This document shows positions 3 to 60,706 of a stretch of DNA of 64,000 nt, in pieces; positions within the stretch are counted from its first letter, which is position 1, and every line of letters starts with the position of its first letter. Source of the DNA: Bdellovibrionales bacterium (GTDB lineage: Bacteria > Bdellovibrionota > UBA1018); the NCBI GenBank assembly GCA_016786465.1, contig JAEUWC010000016.1:1-64000 (forward strand), given 5' to 3'. Below the pieces are notes generated by a model. It ran no database searches, was not told the DNA's origin, and worked only from the letters and a program-made list of their open reading frames with translations. The position numbers and the translations under genes are program-made.

Positions 3-3000
3 TCGGCTGCGACTTCGACCACTTTTACCAGCGGTTCATTTGCTTCAACAGGTACCGTCACCGTGACTGATAGTCTGGGTAACGTCGCTTCTTCGACCGT
101 CACCGTCACCCAAGGCGTTCCTGCTGCACCGACCTTGGGCGCTCCACAAACCGATTCTTTGACGTCCAGCCAAGTTCGTTTGAATTGGCAAAACGTTCCG
201 GATGCCACCGGGTACAAGGTTTCCTTGAACAACTTCAGTACGTATGTGGATGTTGGAATGGCGACTTCGTACCTATTCACGGGCCTGACCGGTGGAACGG
301 CCTATACCTTGTACGTTCGCGGCTACAACGCCGGTGGTGATGGCGCAATTACTTCGTATGGCATCACGACCTTAGCGGTGCCAGCCGCACCCACGATTAG
401 CGGTACGATTTCGACGGCTTCGACGTTGGATCTTTCATGGAATTCCGTTGCCGGCGCAACCAGCTACGAAGTTTCTACCAACGGAACGATTTGGACCAAT
501 GTCGGTGCGCTTCTGACGTACAGTTTCGCGGGCCTAAATTCGGGAACCAGCTACACACTTTACGTCCGAGCTGAAAACGTGGTCGGTGTCAGTACTGCTA
601 CGACGACGACGGTTTCAACACGTCCTGCGGCGCCGACGATTACTGGCGCCACACCGACAGCGACGTCGGTGAACTTGACTTGGTCGGCAGTAACCGGTGC
701 AACCGGTGGTTACTTTGTTTCAAACGACGGAAGTAACTGGAACGCTGTCGCAGGAACGACGTATAATTTTACAGGGCTTTCTAGCGGAACGACCTACACG
801 TTTTACGTGAAGGCCAACAACGGCGGCGGTGACAGCACAAATTCGACCACCAACGCAACGACGATTCCCGCAATGCCTTCGATTTCGGGCACAGTTCCAA
901 CCGTCAATTCGATTCAACTGTCTTGGGCAGCCGTAACCGGTGCAACCCATTATGAAGTCAGCATGGACGGTATCGTTTGGATCAATCCAGGTGCACTGAC
1001 CTATACATTTGCGGGGCTTTCGTCCGGAACATCCTATACGCTTCAACTTCGCGCGCACAATGCATCTGGAACAAGCACGGTCGCATCCACTGGCGCAGTC
1101 TTTACGCTGCCAGCAGCTGTCACGATCACGGCTGCAACACCCACCACCACTACCGTTGCCATGAGCTGGAGCGCATCTACCGGTGCAACCAGCTATTCAG
1201 TTTCATCCAACGGCAGTACCTGGAATAGCACTGCTTCGACGAACTACACTTTCACAAGTTTGGCATCTGGAACCAACTTTACGTTGTACGTGAGACCTTC
1301 GAACCCCAGCGGATTTGGTTCAACCACGACCACGACAGTGTGGACCGTCCCTGCGACACCCGTTGTGACACTTGGAACGTACACGACCAATTCCGCACCC
1401 ATCACTTGGGCTGCAGTAACTGGTGCCGTTTCGTATGACGTTTCCAAAAACGGCACGACTTGGACCAACGTCGGAACCGCGACTTCTTATACCTTTACCG
1501 GACTTTGGGAAGGCACCAGCTATACCCTTTACGTTCGTGCCAACGGCTCGACTAGCGTCAGCGCTTCTGGATCTTCGGGTTCATTTACAACATTATATAA
1601 TTCCATCGGCACGGGCTGGTCATCTTCAAGCACCGGAAACGCTGCTTGTGGTCTTTTGGGCAAGAAATGCATTGCCGCTTACAATTCCAGCGGTACTGCA
1701 ATCAGTTGCGGTGACCTGACTTCAAGCGCTTCAGCCACTTGCGACAGTTCCGGAATTTCGCTTGGATGGTCATCCTCCAGCACCGGCTATGAAAAATGCG
1801 GCGCAGTGGGAATGTCCTGCACCCAGGCTTACAATTCCAGTGGAACGCCAATTAGTTGCGGAAATCTGACTTCCAGTGCTTCAGCCGTTTGTGATCCGAC
1901 CGGAATTTCTGTGGGATGGTCTTCTAGTTCTACGGGGAACGCACAATGCGGAAGCGTTGGGAAAAGCTGTGTCCAGGCTTATAATTCCAGCGGAACCGCG
2001 ATCAGCTGTGGCGACTTAACTTCCAGTGCTTCGGCCGTTTGCGACGGTTCCGGACGTTCTGTGGGCTGGTCATCCAGTTCGACTGGATATGAAAAGTGTG
2101 GGGCCGTTGGAATGACCTGCGCGCAAGCCTACAATTCAAGCGGCACTGCAATCAGCTGCGGCAATCTGACTTCAAGCGCTTCAGCCAAGTGCGACAATTC
2201 GGGGATTTCGGTGGGTTGGTCGTCATCCAGCACCGGAAACGCGCAATGCGGTACCGTCGGTATGAAGTGTGCCCAGGCTTACAATTCAAGCGGCACCGCA
2301 ATCAGCTGCGGTGATTTGACTTCAAGCGCTTCAGCCGTTTGCGACAATTCAGGTGTATCAGTCGGCTGGTCGTCATCAAGCACTGGAAACGCATCTTGTG
2401 GTCTGTTTGGAAAAAACTGTGTGCAAGCATTTAATTCCAGCGGCACCCCGATCAGCTGCGGCGACTTGACTTCAAGCGCCTCGGCAACCTGCGACGGTAC
2501 AGGGATTTCTGTGGGTTGGTCTTCATCCAGTACCGGTAACGCACAATGCGGCACCGTCGGAATGAAGTGTACTCAAGCCTACAATTCAGGCGGTACGGCA
2601 ATTAGCTGCGGTGATTTGACTTCCAGCGCTTCAGCAAAATGCGATAACACCGGGGTATCCGTGGGTTGGTCTTCTTCTAGCACCGGTAATCAGGCGTGCG
2701 GCAGTTTCGGAAAAAATTGTGTCCAAGCTTATAATTCCAGCGGAACTGCAATCAGCTGCGGTGACCTGACTTCCAGCGCATCCGCCGTTTGCGACAGTTC
2801 CGGCCGTTCAGTGGGCTGGTCTTCTAGTTCGACGGGATACGAAGTATGTGGTTCCGTCGGAATGACTTGCACTCAGGCCTACAATTCCAGCGGAACCGCG
2901 ATCAGCTGCGGTAATTTGACTTCTAGCGCATCTGCCAAGTGCAACAGTTCCGGAATTTCTGTGGGATGGTCTTCGTCCAGCACTGGGAACGCACAGTGCG

Positions 3001-4157
3001 GAAGCGTAGGCCGTGCCTGCGTTCAGGCCTATAATTCCAGCGGCACCGCGATCAGCTGCGGCAATCTGACATCTAGCGCTTCGGCAACCTGCACCGGAAC
3101 AGGGGCCGCTTTAGCACCCACCATCTTGGTTGGAGCTTTGACGAACACCAGTGCATCGGTGACCTGGGATCCAGCCGTGAACGCAGACGAATACGAAGTT
3201 TCAAGCGATGGCGGTACCACTTGGACTTCTGTTGGAACCATGACCGGCTACACCTTCAGCAACCTGACTCCCTGGACGATTTACACATTCAGCGCACGCG
3301 CATTGAATTCGGGAAGTCCTAGCATGTCAACGGATGTGCAGGTCTTTACCAGCGAAACTCCTTACAGTGAATCGAACTACCTTTCGACCTTCAATAATTA
3401 CGCAACGGACACGCAGGTTGCTTGCTTCCGAACCGTTTCAAACGCTCTGCTGGCCACCGGCGCTTCGAATACCTATTCGCAACCGGTTTCAACCTGTGGA
3501 TCGCCTTCGACTACCGACCAAACAGCCGCATGTTACAAGACCGTAGCAAAAGCGACTGGTTCGTATCCGGCTTCAAATTCTTATACACATCCGATCAGTC
3601 AGTGCGGCAATCCGTCTAATTCTACTGAAAAAATGAACTGCTACTTTTCGGTGGCTGCAGCAACGTCGAGCTACTCGGCGTCGAATGCTTACTCGCATCC
3701 GATCAGCCAATGCGGAAGTCCTGCAAATTCACCGGAAAAACTGACTTGCTACACCGCTGTCGCTGTCGCTGCTGCCAGCTATTCAGGCAGCAGCAATTAC
3801 AGTTTACCGACCAGTCAGTGCGGCAGCCCAAGTGGGTCGACTGAAAAAATGGGTTGCTACAATGCTGTTGCCCTGGCGGCAGCTTCCTATTCTTCATCGA
3901 ACAATTATTCGCTTCCACGCAGTCAGTGCGGCAACCCAGGTTCTTCGTCGGAAAAGATCGCCTGCTACCGTGCAATTGCAGATGCGACGCGTTCGTATCC
4001 GACAGACACCAATGCGTATTCCCGTCCTGTTGCTGAATGTGGCTTGCCATCTGGAACCCTTGAAACCATCGCCTGCCGCGATGCCGTCGCATGGGCCAAT
4101 GGCTTGAATACGGGCGACAGCAACGCTGCGACGCGACCTTTCAGCCAGTGCCCTTAG
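3..4157 (+). CDS. Giant repetitive surface/adhesin-like protein (5' end outside window): FN3 domains, Cys-rich tandem repeats
   Basis: The frame is open from the first base, so the N-terminus and any signal peptide lie outside the window; an internal GTG at 63 is not a credible start. Visible order: six fibronectin type III-like domains of about 81 residues (roughly 119-1590, each opening with PAAPT-like residues and containing an SYTLYVRA-like strand); ten near-identical 50-residue repeats starting GWSSSSTG, each with four Cys (1614-3113); a seventh FN3-like domain (about 3115-3355); and a tail of about seven 37-residue repeats of the type SQCGxP-EK-CYxAVA (about 3360-4154). There is no anchor motif at the C-terminus. 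It is probably an exported adhesin or surface fibre with disulfide-linked repeats. The function is inferred from architecture only; the next gene is another giant surface protein. Confidence 0.85.
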   Translation, partial: SAATSTTFTSGSFASTGTVTVTDSLGNVASSTVTVTQGVPAAPTLGAPQTDSLTSSQVRLNWQNVPDATGYKVSLNNFSTYVDVGMATSYLFTGLTGGTAYTLYVRGYNAGGDGAITSYGITTLAVPAAPTISGTISTASTLDLSWNSVAGATSYEVSTNGTIWTNVGALLTYSFAGLNSGTSYTLYVRAENVVGVSTATTTTVSTRPAAPTITGATPTATSVNLTWSAVTGATGGYFVSNDGSNWNAVAGTTYNFTGLSSGTTYTFYVKANNGGGDSTNSTTNATTIPAMPSISGTVPTVNSIQLSWAAVTGATHYEVSMDGIVWINPGALTYTFAGLSSGTSYTLQLRAHNASGTSTVASTGAVFTLPAAVTITAATPTTTTVAMSWSASTGATSYSVSSNGSTWNSTASTNYTFTSLASGTNFTLYVRPSNPSGFGSTTTTTVWTVPATPVVTLGTYTTNSAPITWAAVTGAVSYDVSKNGTTWTNVGTATSYTFTGLWEGTSYTLYVRANGSTSVSASGSSGSFTTLYNSIGTGWSSSSTGNAACGLLGKKCIAAYNSSGTAISCGDLTSSASATCDSSGISLGWSSSSTGYEKCGAVGMSCTQAYNSSGTPISCGNLTSSASAVCDPTGISVGWSSSSTGNAQCGSVGKSCVQAYNSSGTAISCGDLTSSASAVCDGSGRSVGWSSSSTGYEKCGAVGMTCAQAYNSSGTAISCGNLTSSASAKCDNSGISVGWSSSSTGNAQCGTVGMKCAQAYNSSGTAISCGDLTSSASAVCDNSGVSVGWSSSSTGNASCGLFGKNCVQAFNSSGTPISCGDLTSSASATCDGTGISVGWSSSSTGNAQCGTVGMKCTQAYNSGGTAISCGDLTSSASAKCDNTGVSVGWSSSSTGNQACGSFGKNCVQAYNSSGTAISCGDLTSSASAVCDSSGRSVGWSSSSTGYEVCGSVGMTCTQAYNSSGTAISCGNLTSSASAKCNSSGISVGWSSSSTGNAQCGSVGRACVQAYNSSGTAISCGNLTSSASATCTGTGAALAPTILVGALTNTSASVTWDPAVNADEYEVSSDGGTTWTSVGTMTGYTFSNLTPWTIYTFSARALNSGSPSMSTDVQVFTSETPYSESNYLSTFNNYATDTQVACFRTVSNALLATGASNTYSQPVSTCGSPSTTDQTAACYKTVAKATGSYPASNSYTHPISQCGNPSNSTEKMNCYFSVAAATSSYSASNAYSHPISQCGSPANSPEKLTCYTAVAVAAASYSGSSNYSLPTSQCGSPSGSTEKMGCYNAVALAAASYSSSNNYSLPRSQCGNPGSSSEKIACYRAIADATRSYPTDTNAYSRPVAECGLPSGTLETIACRDAVAWANGLNTGDSNAATRPFSQCP
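1614..3113 (+). repeat. Ten in-frame 150-bp tandem repeats encoding a 4-Cys 50-residue module
   Basis: The period is exactly 150 bp, with GW-encoding codons at 1614, 1764 and so on for ten copies. Each unit encodes GWSSSSTG, then an xCGxxGxxC segment, AYNSSGTAISCG, LTSSASAxC and a short linker. Copies differ mostly at synonymous sites and in the segment after GWSSSSTG (NAQCG versus YEKCG types alternate). All copies keep the four Cys. An in-frame array like this can gain or lose copies without a frameshift. Confidence 0.95.
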
Positions 4158-8830: not shown

Positions 8831-9178
8831 GTGGAATACCGCCTTTTATTGAAAGCGCTTCTGGCACTGGGTCTGATTGAATCACCGGCATTCGCGGGTA
8901 ACGAACCCGTGATTACGGCCAAGCTTTCAGCTCCCGCCGATTGCAAGGCCGGCCCCGCACAGGCCTGGCTTTCGATGGATTCTATCCTGATCTACCAGGT
9001 GGAAGTCCCTCCTACGGGTGAACTGGAAATGCACGTCAAACCCGGCAAGTACCACTTGGTGATTACCCACCCCAAGGGATGCTTTGCTGAAAAACCCATC
9101 GAAGTGAAGGCCAGCCAAACGCTGAATCTTGAAATTGCTTTGAATGCTGCGAAAGAAAAGAAAGGGATGAAGAAATGA
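8831..9178 (+). CDS. Small exported protein of unknown function
   Basis: 115 residues from a GTG start. The N-terminus (about 20 residues, ending SPAFAG) is a Sec-type signal peptide. The mature part is a small predicted beta domain with PGKYHLVITHPKGCFAEKP, which resembles a PEGA- or carboxypeptidase-regulatory-like sandwich that places a short extension on a surface; that fold is a guess. It ends in a Lys-rich tail. Its stop overlaps the start of the next gene by 4 nt (ATGA), so the two are translationally coupled. I do not recognise a named family. Confidence 0.7.
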   Translation: MEYRLLLKALLALGLIESPAFAGNEPVITAKLSAPADCKAGPAQAWLSMDSILIYQVEVPPTGELEMHVKPGKYHLVITHPKGCFAEKPIEVKASQTLNLEIALNAAKEKKGMKK

Positions 9179-10143
9179 AACGTCTGACCGCACTTGCCAT
9201 CCCTTTAATTCTGTTTCTGGCCGTAACTTTTGTTCAAAAATCCAATGCTCAGTTTCAGTGCACGACCGGAATGGAATACAACTGTCCTGGCCACCCCGCT
9301 TGGCAACAACGAACCTTACAGGGTTCGCGTTGGTGCCCCTATTGCGGAATGCAAGACAACACGATGATGGGACCGATGGGTTACGGAACACCTGGATTTT
9401 TCCCTAGCTATTACCCTTCTTGGTACGGATATGGCGCAATGGCTTATCCCAATTTTTTCTACCCAAGCCCCTGGATGGGATGGGGTGTGGATGGCGGCTA
9501 TTACCCCGGACACGGCGGTGGATACGCAGCAAAGCCCAACGTTTATGTCGAAGGGAAAGAGGGCTTAAGCGTCAAGATCCAGGTGCAACTTTCCAACGAC
9601 AGCACCTTGCTTGCTGCTGCGCCGATTCATGGAAACGACGGCTGGAAGGGAAGAATCCTGAAGGAAGGAAAGCTTGAATCTAAGGGATCTGAATACGGCT
9701 ACTTTTATTACGATTACCGCTTTGACGAAAAAATTCTTCAAGACCAGGCCGGATTCTGCGCGCTTCGTAAAGACGTGATTGAAAAAATGGCGGAAGGTTT
9801 GAACCAAGCGGGTTTCAAAGATCGAGAAATCGTGGACTTTGTGTCCCACTGGTCGATCAAAATACCGCCGATGAAGCGTTTTTGCGTTTTTCCGCAAGAC
9901 CAACGGACTTTGGACAAAGCTGCGAAGGTTCAGATCGAACCCAAGCCCAAGGCTTTTGTTCGCGTGCAATTCATCGTGATCCCAGAAGAGGGACTGAAAA
10001 AGTACGGCAGTCTTTTCGCATCTGAACCCAAGAAAGCTTGGGACTTTGTCGAACAAGGCAAGCCAGGTCGAATACCGGCGGCTGCCGGACAGTCTGACCT
10101 GATCGTCCGCGAATGGGGCGTAGGCTTCCTTCAGGGCAACTAG
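9175..10143 (+). CDS. Exported protein with heavy-metal-binding-domain-like motif and Tyr/Gly/Pro-rich segment
   Basis: 322 residues. A signal peptide covers residues 1-25 (hydrophobic, ending SNAQ). Immediately after it, YNCPGHP followed about 12 residues later by CPYCGM resembles the YxCPMHP-CPxCGM signature of the HMBD heavy-metal-binding domain, although Met of the CPMHP core is Gly here. Residues about 60-125 are very rich in Tyr, Gly, Pro and Trp. The C-terminal 190 residues are a soluble domain I do not recognise (KIPPMKRFCVFPQDQRTLD region). It is coupled to the small exported gene upstream by ATGA, and its TAG stop directly abuts the 11-bp satellite array. Metal binding outside the cytoplasm is inferred from the motif only. 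Confidence 0.75.
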   Translation: MKRLTALAIPLILFLAVTFVQKSNAQFQCTTGMEYNCPGHPAWQQRTLQGSRWCPYCGMQDNTMMGPMGYGTPGFFPSYYPSWYGYGAMAYPNFFYPSPWMGWGVDGGYYPGHGGGYAAKPNVYVEGKEGLSVKIQVQLSNDSTLLAAAPIHGNDGWKGRILKEGKLESKGSEYGYFYYDYRFDEKILQDQAGFCALRKDVIEKMAEGLNQAGFKDREIVDFVSHWSIKIPPMKRFCVFPQDQRTLDKAAKVQIEPKPKAFVRVQFIVIPEEGLKKYGSLFASEPKKAWDFVEQGKPGRIPAAAGQSDLIVREWGVGFLQGN

Positions 10144-10144
10144 C

Positions 10145-10557
10145 TGTCGGATCCGTGTCGGACTTGTGTCGGATCCGTGTCGGATCCGTGTCGGACTTGT
10201 GTCGGATCCGTGTCGGATCCGTGTCGGATCCGTGTCGGATCCGTGTCGGACTTCACCGGGCGTCCCCACCCGGGGACTCTCTGTGCAGCTGTCGGACTTG
10301 TGTCGGATCCGTGTCGGACTTGTGTCGGACCTGTGTCGGATCCGTGTCGGATCCGTGTCGGATCCGTGTCGGACTTCACCGGGCGTCCCCACCCGGGGAC
10401 TCTCTGTGCAGCTGTCGGACTTGTGTCGGACTTGTGTCGGACTTGTGTCGGACTTGTGTCGGACTTGTGTCGGACTTGTGTCGGATCCGTGTCGGATCCG
10501 TGTCGGACTTCACCGGGCGTCCCCACCCGGGGACTCTCTGTGCAGCTGTCGGACTTG
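10145..10557 (+). repeat. Satellite of 28 tandem 11-bp units (TGTCGGATCCG / TGTCGGACTTG) in blocks separated by identical 35-bp spacers
   Basis: The invariant core is TGTCGG, followed by ATCCG or ACTTG (one ACCTG at 10323; the last unit of each block ends ACTTC). Block 1 is 10145-10254 (10 units), block 2 is 10290-10377 (8), block 3 is 10413-10511 (9), and one unit is at 10547-10557 with a partial unit after it. The three spacers, 10255-10289, 10378-10412 and 10512-10546, are identical in sequence and contain a CCGGG-x8-CCCGG dyad and end in TGTGCAGC. Because 11 is not a multiple of 3 and the units lack stops, long open frames arise on both strands by chance; I regard the region as non-coding. 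It lies between convergent genes. Confidence 0.95.
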
Positions 10558-10613
10558 TGTCGGAAATCAGGGTGACAGCCAAGGACTTGCGCCCAACACG
10601 ACTTCTTTTGTGG
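10558..10613. other. Unique core between the two oppositely oriented repeat arrays
   Basis: This stretch of about 56 bp separates the plus-oriented 11-bp array from the minus-oriented composite repeats. It starts with a decayed unit (TGTCGGAAATC) and otherwise shows no recognisable gene, promoter or terminator. Confidence 0.6.
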
Positions 10614-10804
10614 AAACCCGACATACTTCCGACAACTGCACAGAGTGACCCGAGGGGCGCAGGCTCTGCAAACCCGACATACTTCCGACAACTGCACAGG
10701 ATGACCCGAGGGGGCACAGGCTCTGCAAACCCGACATACTTCCGACAACTGCACAGGGTGACCCGCGGGGCACAGGCTCTGCAAACCCGACATACTTCCG
10801 ACAA
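10614..10804 (-). repeat. Inverted-orientation copies of the same element: three 56-57-bp composite repeats plus a partial copy
   Basis: Copies begin at 10614, 10670, 10727 and 10783 on the plus strand. Read on the minus strand each holds two 11-bp units (TGTCGGAAGTA, TGTCGGGTTTG) followed by a GC-rich segment of about 34-35 bp that ends TGTGCAGT before the next TGTCGG. This is the same architecture as the left array (11-bp units, then a spacer ending TGTGCAG), in opposite orientation. Copies differ by small substitutions and one indel, so they are more diverged than the left spacers. The array stops a few bases before the end of cysN. Confidence 0.9.
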
Positions 10805-10817
10805 ACGAGCCTAGCGC

Positions 10818-12041
10818 CTAAACTCCCAGAAAAAACCCTGCCGCAATCGTGCCCCCAGTTTCCAAGGACAAAAGCACAAAGCGACCCAGATCGCCTTGGC
10901 CTGAAAAGTCTCGGGTGTCTGTCGCGAAATCTTCGGCAAATTCCAGAACCGCTTCCTGAATTTCATTCTGCGCAAAACCGCCAGGCGTCGACGTAGCCCG
11001 GGGCAGAACCCGCACTTTCTTTTCCGCTAGCAAAGTCCGTAACCAAAATTCCTTCCCGGAAAGATCCAGATTTTCCAAAAGCGGGCAAATTTCGACTTTC
11101 CACCGGCGTGCCGACAACGGCCCCTTTTCAGGCAAGGTCAATAAAGTCCCAGCCGCTACTTCCCGATCCAGTTTTAGAAAAACCGGATCACCTGGAAGCG
11201 CATGATTCGTGACCTGATCGCCAATTTGAATTTCAAGAACCTGAACCAACCCAGAAACTTCGGGCGTTTGCAGACAATCTTCGCGCTGAAGCCGACCCGA
11301 ATGAATCACGGCCAGGGTTCCCGCTTCGTCACTGCCCGCACCCAAGACCCTTCCCTGGATTGAAAGCCTTAACGAAGCATCTTCGTGTCCAAAAACCGAA
11401 GATCCTGGTACTTGCTTTAGCCAATCCAAAAGACTGGGGCCACGAAACCACGAAAGCGGACTGCCTGCGAAGCTTAGAATTCCATGACCTTCGAGCGCGC
11501 AAGCCGGAATCACCGTAATTTCGGCCATCCCGGCTTCTGATTCGATTTCCTGTTTCCGCTTCAGGAAAATTTCCTGGGAAAATCCACAAAGGTCCATCTT
11601 ATTCACAACCGCAAGAATCCTAGGAATCTTCATCCACTGAGCAATTTTCAGATGCCTGCGGGTTTGTTCTTTCAATCCAGAATGGCCTTCAAGCAGCAAA
11701 ACCACTGCGTCGACCTGCGAACATGCCGTCACCATGTTCCGCGTGAATTCAAAATGCCCCGGAGCATCTGCAACCACCAAGCGGCGCCCGGCCATATCCA
11801 AATACCGGTATGCAACGTCAATGGTGATCCCATTTTCGACTTCAGACCGCAGGCCATCCGTGAAGTAAGCCAGATTCACGACCCCTGATTTCTCACGTCC
11901 AGTAGCATTCTTCTGGGAAGCCTTTTCAATCGTTTGAACTTGATCGGATTTGATCTGCCCCAGTTCGTGAAAGAACCGACCGACCAGGGTACTTTTCCCA
12001 TCGTCCACGCTTCCGCAGACCATGATTCGAAGCTGGTCCAT
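10818..12041 (-). CDS. cysN: Sulfate adenylyltransferase subunit 1 (GTPase subunit)
   Basis: 407 residues. CysN hydrolyses GTP to drive APS formation from ATP and sulfate by CysD. Visible GTPase motifs: G1 GSVDDGKST (residues 10-18), G3 DAPGHFEFTRN (about 92-102) and G4 NKMD (about 147-150), followed by the EF-Tu-like beta-barrel domains. It is slightly short for the family and has no C-terminal CysC fusion; APS kinase is a separate gene here. The start overlaps the cysD stop by 1 nt (TAATG), so it is coupled to cysD in the order cysC-cysD-cysN. Its 3' end faces the 11-bp satellite. Confidence 0.95.
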   Translation of the reverse strand: MDQLRIMVCGSVDDGKSTLVGRFFHELGQIKSDQVQTIEKASQKNATGREKSGVVNLAYFTDGLRSEVENGITIDVAYRYLDMAGRRLVVADAPGHFEFTRNMVTACSQVDAVVLLLEGHSGLKEQTRRHLKIAQWMKIPRILAVVNKMDLCGFSQEIFLKRKQEIESEAGMAEITVIPACALEGHGILSFAGSPLSWFRGPSLLDWLKQVPGSSVFGHEDASLRLSIQGRVLGAGSDEAGTLAVIHSGRLQREDCLQTPEVSGLVQVLEIQIGDQVTNHALPGDPVFLKLDREVAAGTLLTLPEKGPLSARRWKVEICPLLENLDLSGKEFWLRTLLAEKKVRVLPRATSTPGGFAQNEIQEAVLEFAEDFATDTRDFSGQGDLGRFVLLSLETGGTIAAGFFLGV

Positions 12042-44864: not shown

Positions 44865-44871
44865 TATTTTT

Positions 44872-44949
44872 AATCGGGGCGATCCCATTACGGCTCGCCC
44901 GGTCCATATTCTAAATCGGGGCGAGCCCATTACGGTTCGCCCGGTCCAT
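44872..44949 (-). repeat. Two tandem 36-bp hairpin repeats between secF and recJ
   Basis: Copies at 44872-44907 and 44914-44949 (42-bp period), 34/36 identical. Each contains the stem GGGCGAxCC / GGxTCGCCC with loop CATTAC. In the second copy all nine stem positions can pair (one as G-U); the first has one mismatch. The second copy reaches the last base of the secF stop codon. No U tract follows, so these are not typical rho-independent terminators. They would form two strong hairpins in the secF-recJ mRNA. Confidence 0.85.
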
Positions 44950-57417: not shown

Positions 57418-59034
57418 CTAAAGCTCAAAAGCGCCCACATCCGGGGTCGTCGTCGATCGCAGATTTTTCAAAAAGTCATCGGTCAGTTTCGTGGGAAAAG
57501 CAGTTCCCGTGTTCTGCGCGGGCGAACTTGGAAGAATTTGGAAATTTCCATTGGCGGCGTCCGCAAAAAAAGCGCCAGCAAGGGTGGGCAAGAAAATATT
57601 ACTGGTCGGTGCGTAACACGAAAAATTGTTTCCATTTGCGCCACGATCCGACGCATAACCGGCCGACAGGTTGTTCGCAATCACGACCCCACTTGTGACG
57701 GTGTTGTTGCAAAAAAGATAGATCGATTCGTTCACGCTACCGACCAGGGTGTTATTGTAAAATTCGGTCGGACCCGTGACCATCGAAAGATTGACATCCG
57801 TGTTTCTCAAAAACTGAATTCCGTTTGCAGCGCCGATCACCACGTTATTTGCGTACAAACTGTCGCCCAAACCCTGATGGGTTAATCCGGCACCATATGG
57901 GTTTGTATTTTCCAACCAGTTTCTTAGAACTGTAGCTTTCGTACCCGGATTCACCATGATTCCACCTGTATGCCCCCAGGCGTTCAAGGTCGCCCATTCC
58001 TTAATCACATTGTCCGCGATCAAGCATCCAGTGATGGCCCCCGCTACCTGAATGGCGTCTCGGCCTAATCGTTCAAGGCGGTTTTTTTCAACCCAACAAC
58101 CGTCGACATCGGCTTCTATCAGGGTGTCCATCACACTGTCGCCGTTACAATCGTAATTCTTGAACCCTGGATTGTAGCCACGCCCCGAAACTAGACCGTG
58201 GTGCGATTGTCCAATATAGAAGCCTTCGCCGTTTACGTCGTGAACGAAGTTGTCGTGAATTTTTACGTTAAGAATCGTGAAGCTTCCACGTTGGTAGTTG
58301 CTACAGGTCGGATAACTTCGAAAAGCGATTCCGGCGTATCCATTATTCGGATTTGGCCCAGATCCCGTCACCTCCACGTGATCGATTTCAACGTCGGAAG
58401 TTCCGGCGCTTAAATCCAAGTGACTTGATCCGCTACCCGCTTGACCGACATAAATTCCGTATTCGTACGCAGGGTCACCCGTGCCGGTCAGACGCAAGTA
58501 GCGACTTCCGTCAATCCGAAACGGGACGTTCGTCGTGGACGAAACTTTGACCTGTCCCCCGCAATTGATCAGAGTCGCCGGCTGACCCGCGGCGGCTTTC
58601 ACTTTATTAAATCCAATTCCACTGGTGTACGAACCTGCACGGATGCAAACCATCTTATTGTCATAGTAGCCTGCCGACTTTGAAGTGCCGTCTTCCCAAA
58701 TGGATCCACTTCCTGAACCCAAGATCAAGTCACAGGCCCCGCCAGCTGACTTCAGGGTGCACGCGACTGCGCTCGCACTAGCAGAAGGTGACGGCGATGG
58801 AGAAATCGAAGTCGACGGAGACGGAGACGGAGACGGAGACGGAGACGGCGATGGCGAAGGGGTCGCGCTGGGTGACGCCGAAGGTGATGGCACCACCGAC
58901 GGACTTGGACTTGCCCCAGTCTGCTGGCCGGTCACAGTCGCATTTTTGGATACCTTGAAATCGGGACGACAGCCCACCAGGACCAGTCCCATCAAGGGAA
59001 CTAGCCACCTAGTGAACGAAAGCACCATGGTCAT
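57418..59034 (-). CDS. Parallel beta-helix lipoprotein (paralogue 1)
   Basis: 538 residues; start ATG at 59034 (another ATG at 59028). Lipoprotein signal: VPLMGLVLVGC, with the lipidated Cys near residue 22 followed by RPDFKV. A Ser/Pro linker (residues about 40-90) comes next, coded partly by five copies of GACGGA-type hexamer. The rest is a right-handed parallel beta-helix (pectate-lyase-like rungs with repeated NNxI, EIDHVEVTGSG, NVKIHDNFVHDVNGEGFYIG). Probably surface-exposed and carbohydrate-binding; enzymatic activity is unknown. It is paralogous to the gene upstream, and the two overlap by 26 nt. Confidence 0.85.
   Translation of the reverse strand: MTMVLSFTRWLVPLMGLVLVGCRPDFKVSKNATVTGQQTGASPSPSVVPSPSASPSATPSPSPSPSPSPSPSPSTSISPSPSPSASASAVACTLKSAGGACDLILGSGSGSIWEDGTSKSAGYYDNKMVCIRAGSYTSGIGFNKVKAAAGQPATLINCGGQVKVSSTTNVPFRIDGSRYLRLTGTGDPAYEYGIYVGQAGSGSSHLDLSAGTSDVEIDHVEVTGSGPNPNNGYAGIAFRSYPTCSNYQRGSFTILNVKIHDNFVHDVNGEGFYIGQSHHGLVSGRGYNPGFKNYDCNGDSVMDTLIEADVDGCWVEKNRLERLGRDAIQVAGAITGCLIADNVIKEWATLNAWGHTGGIMVNPGTKATVLRNWLENTNPYGAGLTHQGLGDSLYANNVVIGAANGIQFLRNTDVNLSMVTGPTEFYNNTLVGSVNESIYLFCNNTVTSGVVIANNLSAGYASDRGANGNNFSCYAPTSNIFLPTLAGAFFADAANGNFQILPSSPAQNTGTAFPTKLTDDFLKNLRSTTTPDVGAFEL
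58814..58843. repeat. Hexamer repeat in the Ser/Pro linker (5 x GACGGA)
   Basis: Five tandem copies of GACGGA (plus strand), a sixth degenerate copy follows. On the minus strand this codes alternating Ser-Pro. Because 6 is a multiple of 3 the copy number can change without a frameshift, altering linker length in the beta-helix lipoprotein. Confidence 0.85.
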
Positions 59035-60706
59035 ACTGCCCTGTTCTGTTATTTCCGTCGTAGTCCTTATCCACGGTTCCTAACAAAGATTGGCCCGTAT
59101 TTGCAGCCGGGCTATTCGGAAGAAGGTGAAAATCCAGGTTTGCAGGATCGACAAACTTTGCAGCCGCCTGACTTGCATTCAAGTAGTTGGTTTGCGTGTA
59201 ATTTCCGATACACGAAATATTCGGACCTGTTCCCGTGTAGTACTGGGTTCCGTAGCCTGCGAAAATATTGTTTGTGAAATGAACCTGACCCAGACGCGTG
59301 CAATAGACGCTGATCGCTTCAGCTTCGATATTTGCGAAAGTGTTGTGATAGAAATAGGCGTGCCCCTGAGGCAGTCCCGCGACAATATCGGACTGACTTA
59401 AAAGCGCAACTCCCACACGAACGCCGGCGATCACGTTGTTGAGATAAGTCGTTCCATCCAGGCCCCCATGCTTAATACCTTGGGTGCGGTAAGCGACGTC
59501 GGCCGAAACCCAGTTTCGTTCAACCCAGCCCTTGGATCCCCCGCCAACTTGAATTCCGGTCGAGTGACTTTCGTCTCCGTTCAATCCAAAATTTCGGATG
59601 ATGTTATTTTTTACGACCAGTCCATCGACCACTCCACCGGCCTGAAATGCGTCGTTCCCGGTGTTTTCAATGATGTTATTTTCGACCACGACGTTTCGCC
59701 CACTGGCCTCGTAGTACTGAGGACAGTTTGGGAATCCGATCGAGAATCCCGTGGCAGGTACAAATCCCCAGTGGGAAGGTCCTAAGTACAGACCCTCTAA
59801 ACGAACCTCGTGAATGTAGTTATGATGAATCTTGATATTCTTCATTTCCCAGGTGTTGTACGCCCACTTACCGTCCGAACACCGCGGGTAGGTTTCAGCG
59901 GCAATTCCTAATCCACCTGACATCAAAGGCTTACCTTGGGCATCCCAAGTCAGCGGGACCCCGGCGACTTCGACGTGGTCAATTTCCGCATCCGAAGATC
60001 CGGGTTGAACAACAACGCCGTGACCTGATGCTTGAAGGGCCGGAGCCACGATCGTCTGTTGAACAAAGATTCCGTATTCGTGAGCCGACGATCCGGTTCC
60101 CGTCAAATGCACGTAACTGGATTGTTCAAAACTAATGACCGGACCATTAGTGTTCTTCTTAAATTCGACTTTGCCACCACAGTTTGTGACGGTGACGGGA
60201 CGATTCTCTTCGCCTCCCGTTTGGTACATCCAAAAATAAAGATAGGGTTGCGCACGCGAAGGAATACAAAGTTTCTTCCCCGCATAGAAGGTCGCACCAA
60301 TACTGCGCCCGTCTAGGTTAAATGCCCCGCTTGAATTCGGCGAAAGGATCACGTCGCAACCCGTTCCCGGTGCGACCGTACAAGCCAAGGTCGAAGAAGT
60401 CGGGCTCGGTGACGGAGAAGTGCTGGGTGAAGCACTCGGTGTGGCCGAAGCGCTGGGTGAAGCACTCGGTGTAGCCGAAGCGCTGGGTGAAGCACTCGGT
60501 GTAGCCGAAGCGCTGGGTGAAGCGCTCGGTGTTACGGACGGGCTTGGGCTTGCGGATGGCGACGCTGAAGCCGACGCTGCTGGCTCTCGTTCAGAACGCG
60601 CGATCTTGAAATCGGGCTTGAAGCACGCGCTCAACCCGCCTGTCAAAATTGCAGAAGTCGAAAGAACCCAAAAACCGCGGATTCCGCGTCCCCGGAAGTA
60701 CCCCAT
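59009..60706 (-). CDS. Parallel beta-helix lipoprotein (paralogue 2)
   Basis: 565 residues; ATG at 60706 with AGGGGA about 8-13 nt upstream. Lipoprotein signal: STSAILTGGLSAC, with the Cys near residue 28, then FKPDFKI, a PDFK motif shared with paralogue 1. A Ser/Pro/Ala linker (residues about 45-105) carries four 30-bp repeats at the DNA level. The C-terminal part is a right-handed beta-helix with rungs such as NNIIENTGNDAFQAGG, EIDHVEVAGVP, NIKIHHNYIHEVRLEGLYLG and NNIFAGYGTQYYTG. It likely binds or cleaves a polysaccharide at the surface; no catalytic set can be assigned by eye. It overlaps the start of paralogue 1 by 26 nt. Confidence 0.85.
   Translation of the reverse strand: MGYFRGRGIRGFWVLSTSAILTGGLSACFKPDFKIARSEREPAASASASPSASPSPSVTPSASPSASATPSASPSASATPSASPSASATPSASPSTSPSPSPTSSTLACTVAPGTGCDVILSPNSSGAFNLDGRSIGATFYAGKKLCIPSRAQPYLYFWMYQTGGEENRPVTVTNCGGKVEFKKNTNGPVISFEQSSYVHLTGTGSSAHEYGIFVQQTIVAPALQASGHGVVVQPGSSDAEIDHVEVAGVPLTWDAQGKPLMSGGLGIAAETYPRCSDGKWAYNTWEMKNIKIHHNYIHEVRLEGLYLGPSHWGFVPATGFSIGFPNCPQYYEASGRNVVVENNIIENTGNDAFQAGGVVDGLVVKNNIIRNFGLNGDESHSTGIQVGGGSKGWVERNWVSADVAYRTQGIKHGGLDGTTYLNNVIAGVRVGVALLSQSDIVAGLPQGHAYFYHNTFANIEAEAISVYCTRLGQVHFTNNIFAGYGTQYYTGTGPNISCIGNYTQTNYLNASQAAAKFVDPANLDFHLLPNSPAANTGQSLLGTVDKDYDGNNRTGQYDHGAFVH
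60421..60540. repeat. Four 30-bp minisatellite repeats in the linker of beta-helix paralogue 2
   Basis: Near-identical 30-bp units start at 60421, 60451, 60481 and 60511; the fourth diverges at its end. They encode the Pro/Ser/Ala linker PSASATPSAS. Thirty is a multiple of 3, so copy number changes only linker length. Confidence 0.9.

Follow-up and report, generated by a model that had tools for sequence, protein, structure and literature searches.

Facing arms of 11-bp-phased direct repeats at about eleven gene gaps of one bacterial genome, putative tandem-dimer protein sites

Several described systems bear comparison with the repeats reported here. The PhoP protein of M. tuberculosis recognises direct repeats of a 7-bp motif whose 4-bp spacing is strict, and cooperative extension to three and four repeats gives stronger binding (PMC4832192). 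Repeats of the REP/REPIN type are defined by a palindromic (hairpin) unit of 20-40 bp that carries a GTAG or CGTC tag at its foot. More generally, intergenic repeats that are private to a lineage are common in bacteria, and their role is hard to test because the copies are either recent, and hence show no drift, or decayed.

The 64-kb stretch of DNA analysed here (the window) contains a 674-bp gap between a plus-strand ORF and a minus-strand cysN gene that is filled by two oppositely oriented arrays, as an earlier note on this DNA had claimed and as a direct count and Tandem Repeats Finder both bear out (Table 1). There are 29 copies of TGTCGG on the plus strand at 10145-10564, arranged in four blocks of 10, 8, 9 and 2, and 16 more on this strand in the remainder of the window. 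The description in the earlier note is thereby borne out apart from minor points, among them its count of 28 units. The right-hand array has 8 copies of CCGACA on the plus strand (17 occur elsewhere in the window), which form four composite minus-strand units at 10617-10803 that step by 56-57 bp, where three to four such units had been described. The left-arm blocks are separated by three identical 35-bp spacers with the 3' end CTGTGCAGC, again as described. Tandem Repeats Finder reports 11-bp arrays at 10145-10373 and 10413-10510, a 123/134-bp composite present 3.1 times, and a 56-bp repeat present 3.4 times at 10614-10804. The density of repeats at this locus is far beyond chance. Both neighbouring genes converge on the array, and cysN ends 14 bp past it.

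There are other tandem repeats in the window. These are a 150-bp repeat at 1677-3082 (9.4 copies, 70% matches, with higher-order periods of 300 and 450 bp), two 42-bp copies at 44865-44949 with a hairpin-like GGGCGAGCC...GGCTCGCCC, a 30-bp repeat at 60417-60532 (3.9 copies) and a run of the GACGGA hexamer at 58814-58848 (5.8 copies).

Table 1. Coordinates of the array in the window, of further loci of the same design and of Y1_Tnp genes in the same genome (C, contig; k, kb)
Feature	Position	Strand	Details
Left neighbour	9175..10143	+	322 aa, no Pfam match; stop codon directly before array
Left arm, block 1	10145..10254	+	ten 11-bp units TGTCGGA+N4 (TCCG/CTTG)
Spacer 1	10255..10289	+	35 bp, ends CTGTGCAG (10281-10288) + C
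Left arm, block 2	10290..10377	+	eight 11-bp units
Spacer 2	10378..10412	+	identical to spacer 1; CTGTGCAG at 10404-10411
Left arm, block 3	10413..10511	+	nine 11-bp units
Spacer 3	10512..10546	+	identical to spacer 1; CTGTGCAG at 10538-10545
Left arm, block 4	10547..10564	+	innermost core TGTCGGACTTGTGTCGGA
Gap between facing arms	10565..10616	no strand	
Right arm, innermost core	10617..10634	-	TGTCGGAAGTATGTCGGG; its CTGTGCAG, read on -, at 10636-10643
Right arm, core 2	10673..10690	-	56 bp from core 1
Right arm, core 3	10730..10747	-	57 bp from core 2
Right arm, outermost core	10786..10803	-	56 bp from core 3
Right neighbour	10818..12041	-	cysN-like GTPase (PF00009), converges on array
One core, sequence			CTGTGCAGTTGTCGGAACTGTGTCGGA
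Further locus	C1:110.8k		
Further locus	C3:146.9k		
Further locus	C3:184.6-185.4k		
Further locus	C9:31.6k		
Further locus	C10:26.9k		
Further locus	C19:54.5k		
Further locus	C21:33.4k		
Further locus	C21:58.6k		
Further locus	C23:207.5k		
Further locus	C29:129.5k		
Y1_Tnp gene	G000:C23:208061-208717		L084:2062-2718
Y1_Tnp gene	C5:57.0k		
Y1_Tnp gene	C21:94.2k		
Y1_Tnp gene	C21:109.6k		
Y1_Tnp gene	C23:8.0k		

When the window array is used to search its own genome (3.63 Mb in 30 unordered contigs, a single genome of one genus), matches are found on many contigs. Among the matches listed, an array search, a reading of the places and a pattern scan identify the same design at no fewer than 10 further loci, and additional weak copies may exist. 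The pattern CAGYTGTCGGAASTNTGTCGGA, at up to 3 mismatches, has 48 matches in this genome versus 0 for a control pattern. A typical element consists of two cores some 39 bp apart that point rightward, a centre of variable length, and two cores some 39 bp apart that point leftward, with two or three cores in each arm. Facing arms are found at 10 of the 11 loci, the C23 locus having one arm only. The left arm at C9 is formed by three overlapping 11-bp steps rather than by spaced cores, an additional outer core is set off by a 31-bp step at C10, the outer left core at C1:111k is degenerate, and the arms at C3:184.6k enclose an ORF of 199 aa that encodes an XRE-type helix-turn-helix. The C-terminal end of this ORF (L009:2136-2735; G000:C3) crosses the left arm, and the array thus encodes a repeated tail with RHTSDN. 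There are also two single decayed units, at C4:117272 and C13:38863.

Thus, the window copy is an enlarged version of a small element that is dispersed over about eleven gene gaps. Long 11-bp runs occur in this copy only, and C9 has a short run with a smaller set of 11-bp steps. The extra length of the left arm in the window is probably due to later 11-bp slippage and to 123/134-bp duplications. One alternative is that the window locus is nothing other than a neutral satellite, since slippage and segmental duplication typically leave such traces as blocks of 10, 8, 9 and 2 units with three identical spacers, and the run at C9 is a smaller case. However, neutral slippage leaves the ten other loci of two-arm design, the invariant cores and the drifted spacers of fixed length unexplained, and we regard it as very improbable. 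It is refuted for the family by the further loci and by the contrast of cores and spacers, and it is kept for the extra length of the window copy. The earlier note had also held that scattered copies would make this an ordinary dispersed repeat. The eleven loci do constitute a dispersed repeat family, but its design is unusually rigid.

The core TGTCGGA-N4-TGTCGGA is present at all eleven loci, usually with CTGTKCAGY before it, and both the core and CTGTKCAG are almost invariant, although the cores themselves served to find the loci and core conservation is therefore in part search selection. The first set of loci was found without recourse to the fixed length or the CTGT-CAG tail. Spaced cores step by 56-58 bp, and the 20 core-to-core stretches measured are 38-40 bp long (sd 0.58). 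In these stretches the CTGT and CAG positions hold 2.0 bits, whereas the middle columns hold about 0.1-0.95 bits each. The filling of ~27 bp is a nearly random sequence whose length is constant within 2 bp. Our main argument is drawn from this combination: near-invariant cores, a fixed distance and a near-random filling suggest that cores and spacing are read in trans. Drift has here served as ready-made mutagenesis, and it marks the features that were kept, namely the 7-4-7 core, CTGTKCAG, the 56-58 bp step and the facing arms.

The middles of spacers from different arrays have 38% identity, compared with 33% for shuffles and with 89% for the CTGTKCAG tail, and their mean alignment score of -2.37 is above chance (-3.88 for shuffles, sd 0.27). 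Because this residual similarity exceeds that of shuffles, the middles are best read as drifted homologues and not as independent captures. Within one array the spacers duplicate one another exactly or nearly so (88% identity), and comparison between arrays reveals no recently copied spacer common to any two loci. These patterns also bear on a CRISPR-like origin as repeat-spacer mini-arrays, which a repeat of about 30 bp, a spacer of about 27 bp and a period of 56-57 bp would superficially suggest. The copied spacers within arrays, the residual common descent between arrays, the facing arms, the presence of 11 loci of two or three repeats and the failure of the window array to match any phage or plasmid record make this origin hardly credible.

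The genes that flank the loci are unrelated housekeeping genes without a common theme, including nrdB, valS and cysN and genes for an acyltransferase, a ClpA-like ATPase, a HAD hydrolase, a peroxiredoxin, a DTW protein, a QueG-like protein, a DEAD-box helicase and an HgmA-like protein. Flanking genes are convergent at the window locus, C21:58.6k, C29 and probably C3:147k, tandem at C9, C10 and C19, and divergent at C21:33.4k and at C1:111k (HgmA-like and metallo-beta-lactamase genes). Because unrelated flanks occur in convergent, tandem and divergent order, the element is neither a terminator nor the operator of one regulon.

Perhaps the elements act in RNA at the ends of the flanking transcripts, as a terminator, an mRNA stabiliser or a sponge for an RNA-binding protein. 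Many copies start shortly after stop codons, and the left array as RNA folds better than shuffles (z -3.4), although a palindromic 11-bp variant in the repeat can cause that. However, the two copies between divergent genes do not fit such a role, the arrays at C19 and C3:184.6k already have hairpin-plus-T-run terminators ahead of them as judged by eye, and the window array has no terminator-like site. Hairpins in the spacers are common by eye, yet the 21 spacers show no excess of folding over shuffles (Stouffer z -0.4 to -1.4), and no Rfam 15 family matches near its gathering score, weak matches such as SorX being far below. A function in RNA is accordingly improbable, and the structured RNA that had been put forward in the earlier note is not favoured.

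A 701-bp DNA query has no match in 57 relatives. The search of related genomes for arrays that had been proposed at the outset likewise found none, in that the motif at up to 2 mismatches is absent from the 54 other genomes of the order. At up to 3 mismatches, there are only single 3-mismatch matches, in three other genomes of the family. Three scattered single matches in a scan of a genome collection and six in viral contigs are read as chance. As judged from these searches, the element family is private to this lineage. At the C10 site (L014, G000:C10:26.9k), the genes valS and acyltransferase are separated by less than 80 bp in three relatives, and other relatives have a thiN-like gene between them. 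The genome studied here has the array at this place and lacks the thiN-like gene, whereas no relative examined has an array there.

The main rival reading is that of a non-autonomous mobile element, similar to a MITE or a REPIN/BIME, whose unlike facing arms are the left and right ends for a transposase, perhaps of the HUH (Y1) type; cores would then be kept because only intact ends move. Whole complex elements are present at 11 unrelated gene gaps and therefore were copied, the two types of facing arm resemble left and right ends, and the C10 array occupies a site at which relatives have a short gap or another gene. In addition, there are five Y1_Tnp (RAYT-like) genes in this genome, one of which is some 0.5 kb away from the one-armed C23 array, with no array on its far side. 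However, the other four Y1 genes are without such arrays, and relatives that lack the motif commonly have Y1 homologues. These observations count against a RAYT as the cognate transposase. No two loci have a recently copied spacer in common, and few decayed copies were found, though selfish turnover should leave many. Inspection of the flanks by eye finds no target-site duplication at the outermost TGTCGG or CTGTGCAG and no fixed end, and the outer ends differ between loci. Thus, a mobile element explains the spread better and the scarcity of recent or dead copies worse, and we consider it possible but doubtful.

A short tandem repeat (GGATCGACCTTTTGAATC) comes after the Y1_Tnp gene at C23:208k and a 19-bp tandem repeat adjoins that at C21:94k, such that each gene may have a repeat of its own. 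Each of four single genomes (G002, G018, G025 and G035) matches the C23 Y1 transposase more than 20 times, which reveals an expanded HUH transposase family in the order.

We are evenly balanced on the reading that we prefer, in which these lineage-private, dispersed intergenic elements carry facing arms of putative tandem-dimer protein sites that are kept by selection on the cores. Protein binding is the best supported of the three ideas in the earlier note, to the extent that conserved 7-bp motifs, a 4-bp spacer (11-bp phase) and unconserved DNA between them can suggest it. Because a 7-4-7 direct repeat is the operator form of the OmpR/PhoB family, each core would carry a head-to-tail dimer of a sequence-specific DNA-binding protein, bound in the winged-helix manner of that family. 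The facing arms would give a bivalent nucleoprotein complex in the form of a bridged loop or of paired ends, and the sites would be kept by selection on this putative binding. Whole elements may have spread by copying, and the enlargement of the left arm in the window would have followed. With a PhoP-like binding mode, longer 11-bp runs would load more protein, although the importance of the window expansion is purely conjectural.

The distances between the innermost left and right cores are 26, 29, 37, 38, 48, 50, 69, 70 and 98 bp, and they show clustering with a periodicity of 10.5 bp (R 0.71, p 0.007, or p 0.03 allowing for a scan of periods). Such phasing would be expected of two complexes that have to face one another on the DNA. 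At 9 of 10 two-armed loci the two arms have different N4 types by hand assignment (p 0.03, permutation), one arm having ACTG or variants of it that end in G and its partner AGTN or TGTT. Only the C3 locus that encloses a gene departs from this. Both tests are post hoc and small (9-10 loci).

A role in local DNA architecture or insulation at gene boundaries would best fit the placement of the elements. One more specific possibility is a new kind of chromosomal architecture site, in which a few bivalent elements, with non-identical facing arms whose tandem-dimer sites keep a fixed spacing and helical phase, allow a dedicated protein to bridge DNA at gene boundaries genome-wide. We consider this proposal unlikely, if still worth stating. 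The XRE-type protein encoded between the C3 arms is a candidate binder by position only, and it has distant relatives in the order (26-42% identity). XRE proteins usually bind palindromes. Against protein binding, conserved cores could also reflect recognition by a transposase, and a classical regulator would hardly be expected to bind between convergent genes. The kept features allow the putative binding protein to be fished for directly with a short bait, after which its role can be tested.

Compared with REP, BIME and REPIN sequences (GTAG- and CGTC-tagged; PMC3733652, PMC2817692, PMC3116915), the elements are likewise dispersed, intergenic and composed of units in opposite orientation, and RAYT-type genes are present in the genome. 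Dimers of unlike REP partners are reported as common, which resembles the unlike arms seen here. However, the unit is no palindrome, its cores being 7-4-7 direct repeats at a fixed 56-58 bp step, its spacers do not fold above shuffles, and its conserved columns include no GTAG or CGTC tag. There are about 50 units rather than the >100 usual for REPs, and no RAYT is flanked on both sides.

The BrickBuilt MITE of Porphyromonas gingivalis (PMC4596501) similarly has 19 intergenic copies in one strain with a tandem minisatellite inside, but it is built of 23-bp units without spacers and has a leader and tail with small inverted ends, whereas the elements here have two facing arms, spaced cores and no defined ends. 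The TAACTGA repeats (PMC4679880) are also heptamer direct repeats between functionally unrelated genes and form long arrays in some species. Their units are contiguous with a 7-bp period, however, and in the best-studied genome most of them share one orientation and lie immediately 5' of start codons.

Operators of the OmpR/PhoB family, as exemplified by PhoP (PMC4832192), share with the cores a pair of directly repeated 7-bp motifs that stand 4 bp apart, and longer runs of them are bound more strongly. The known operators are located in the promoters of a regulon, whereas the elements described here lie between unrelated convergent, tandem or divergent genes and have facing arms and a fixed spacing.
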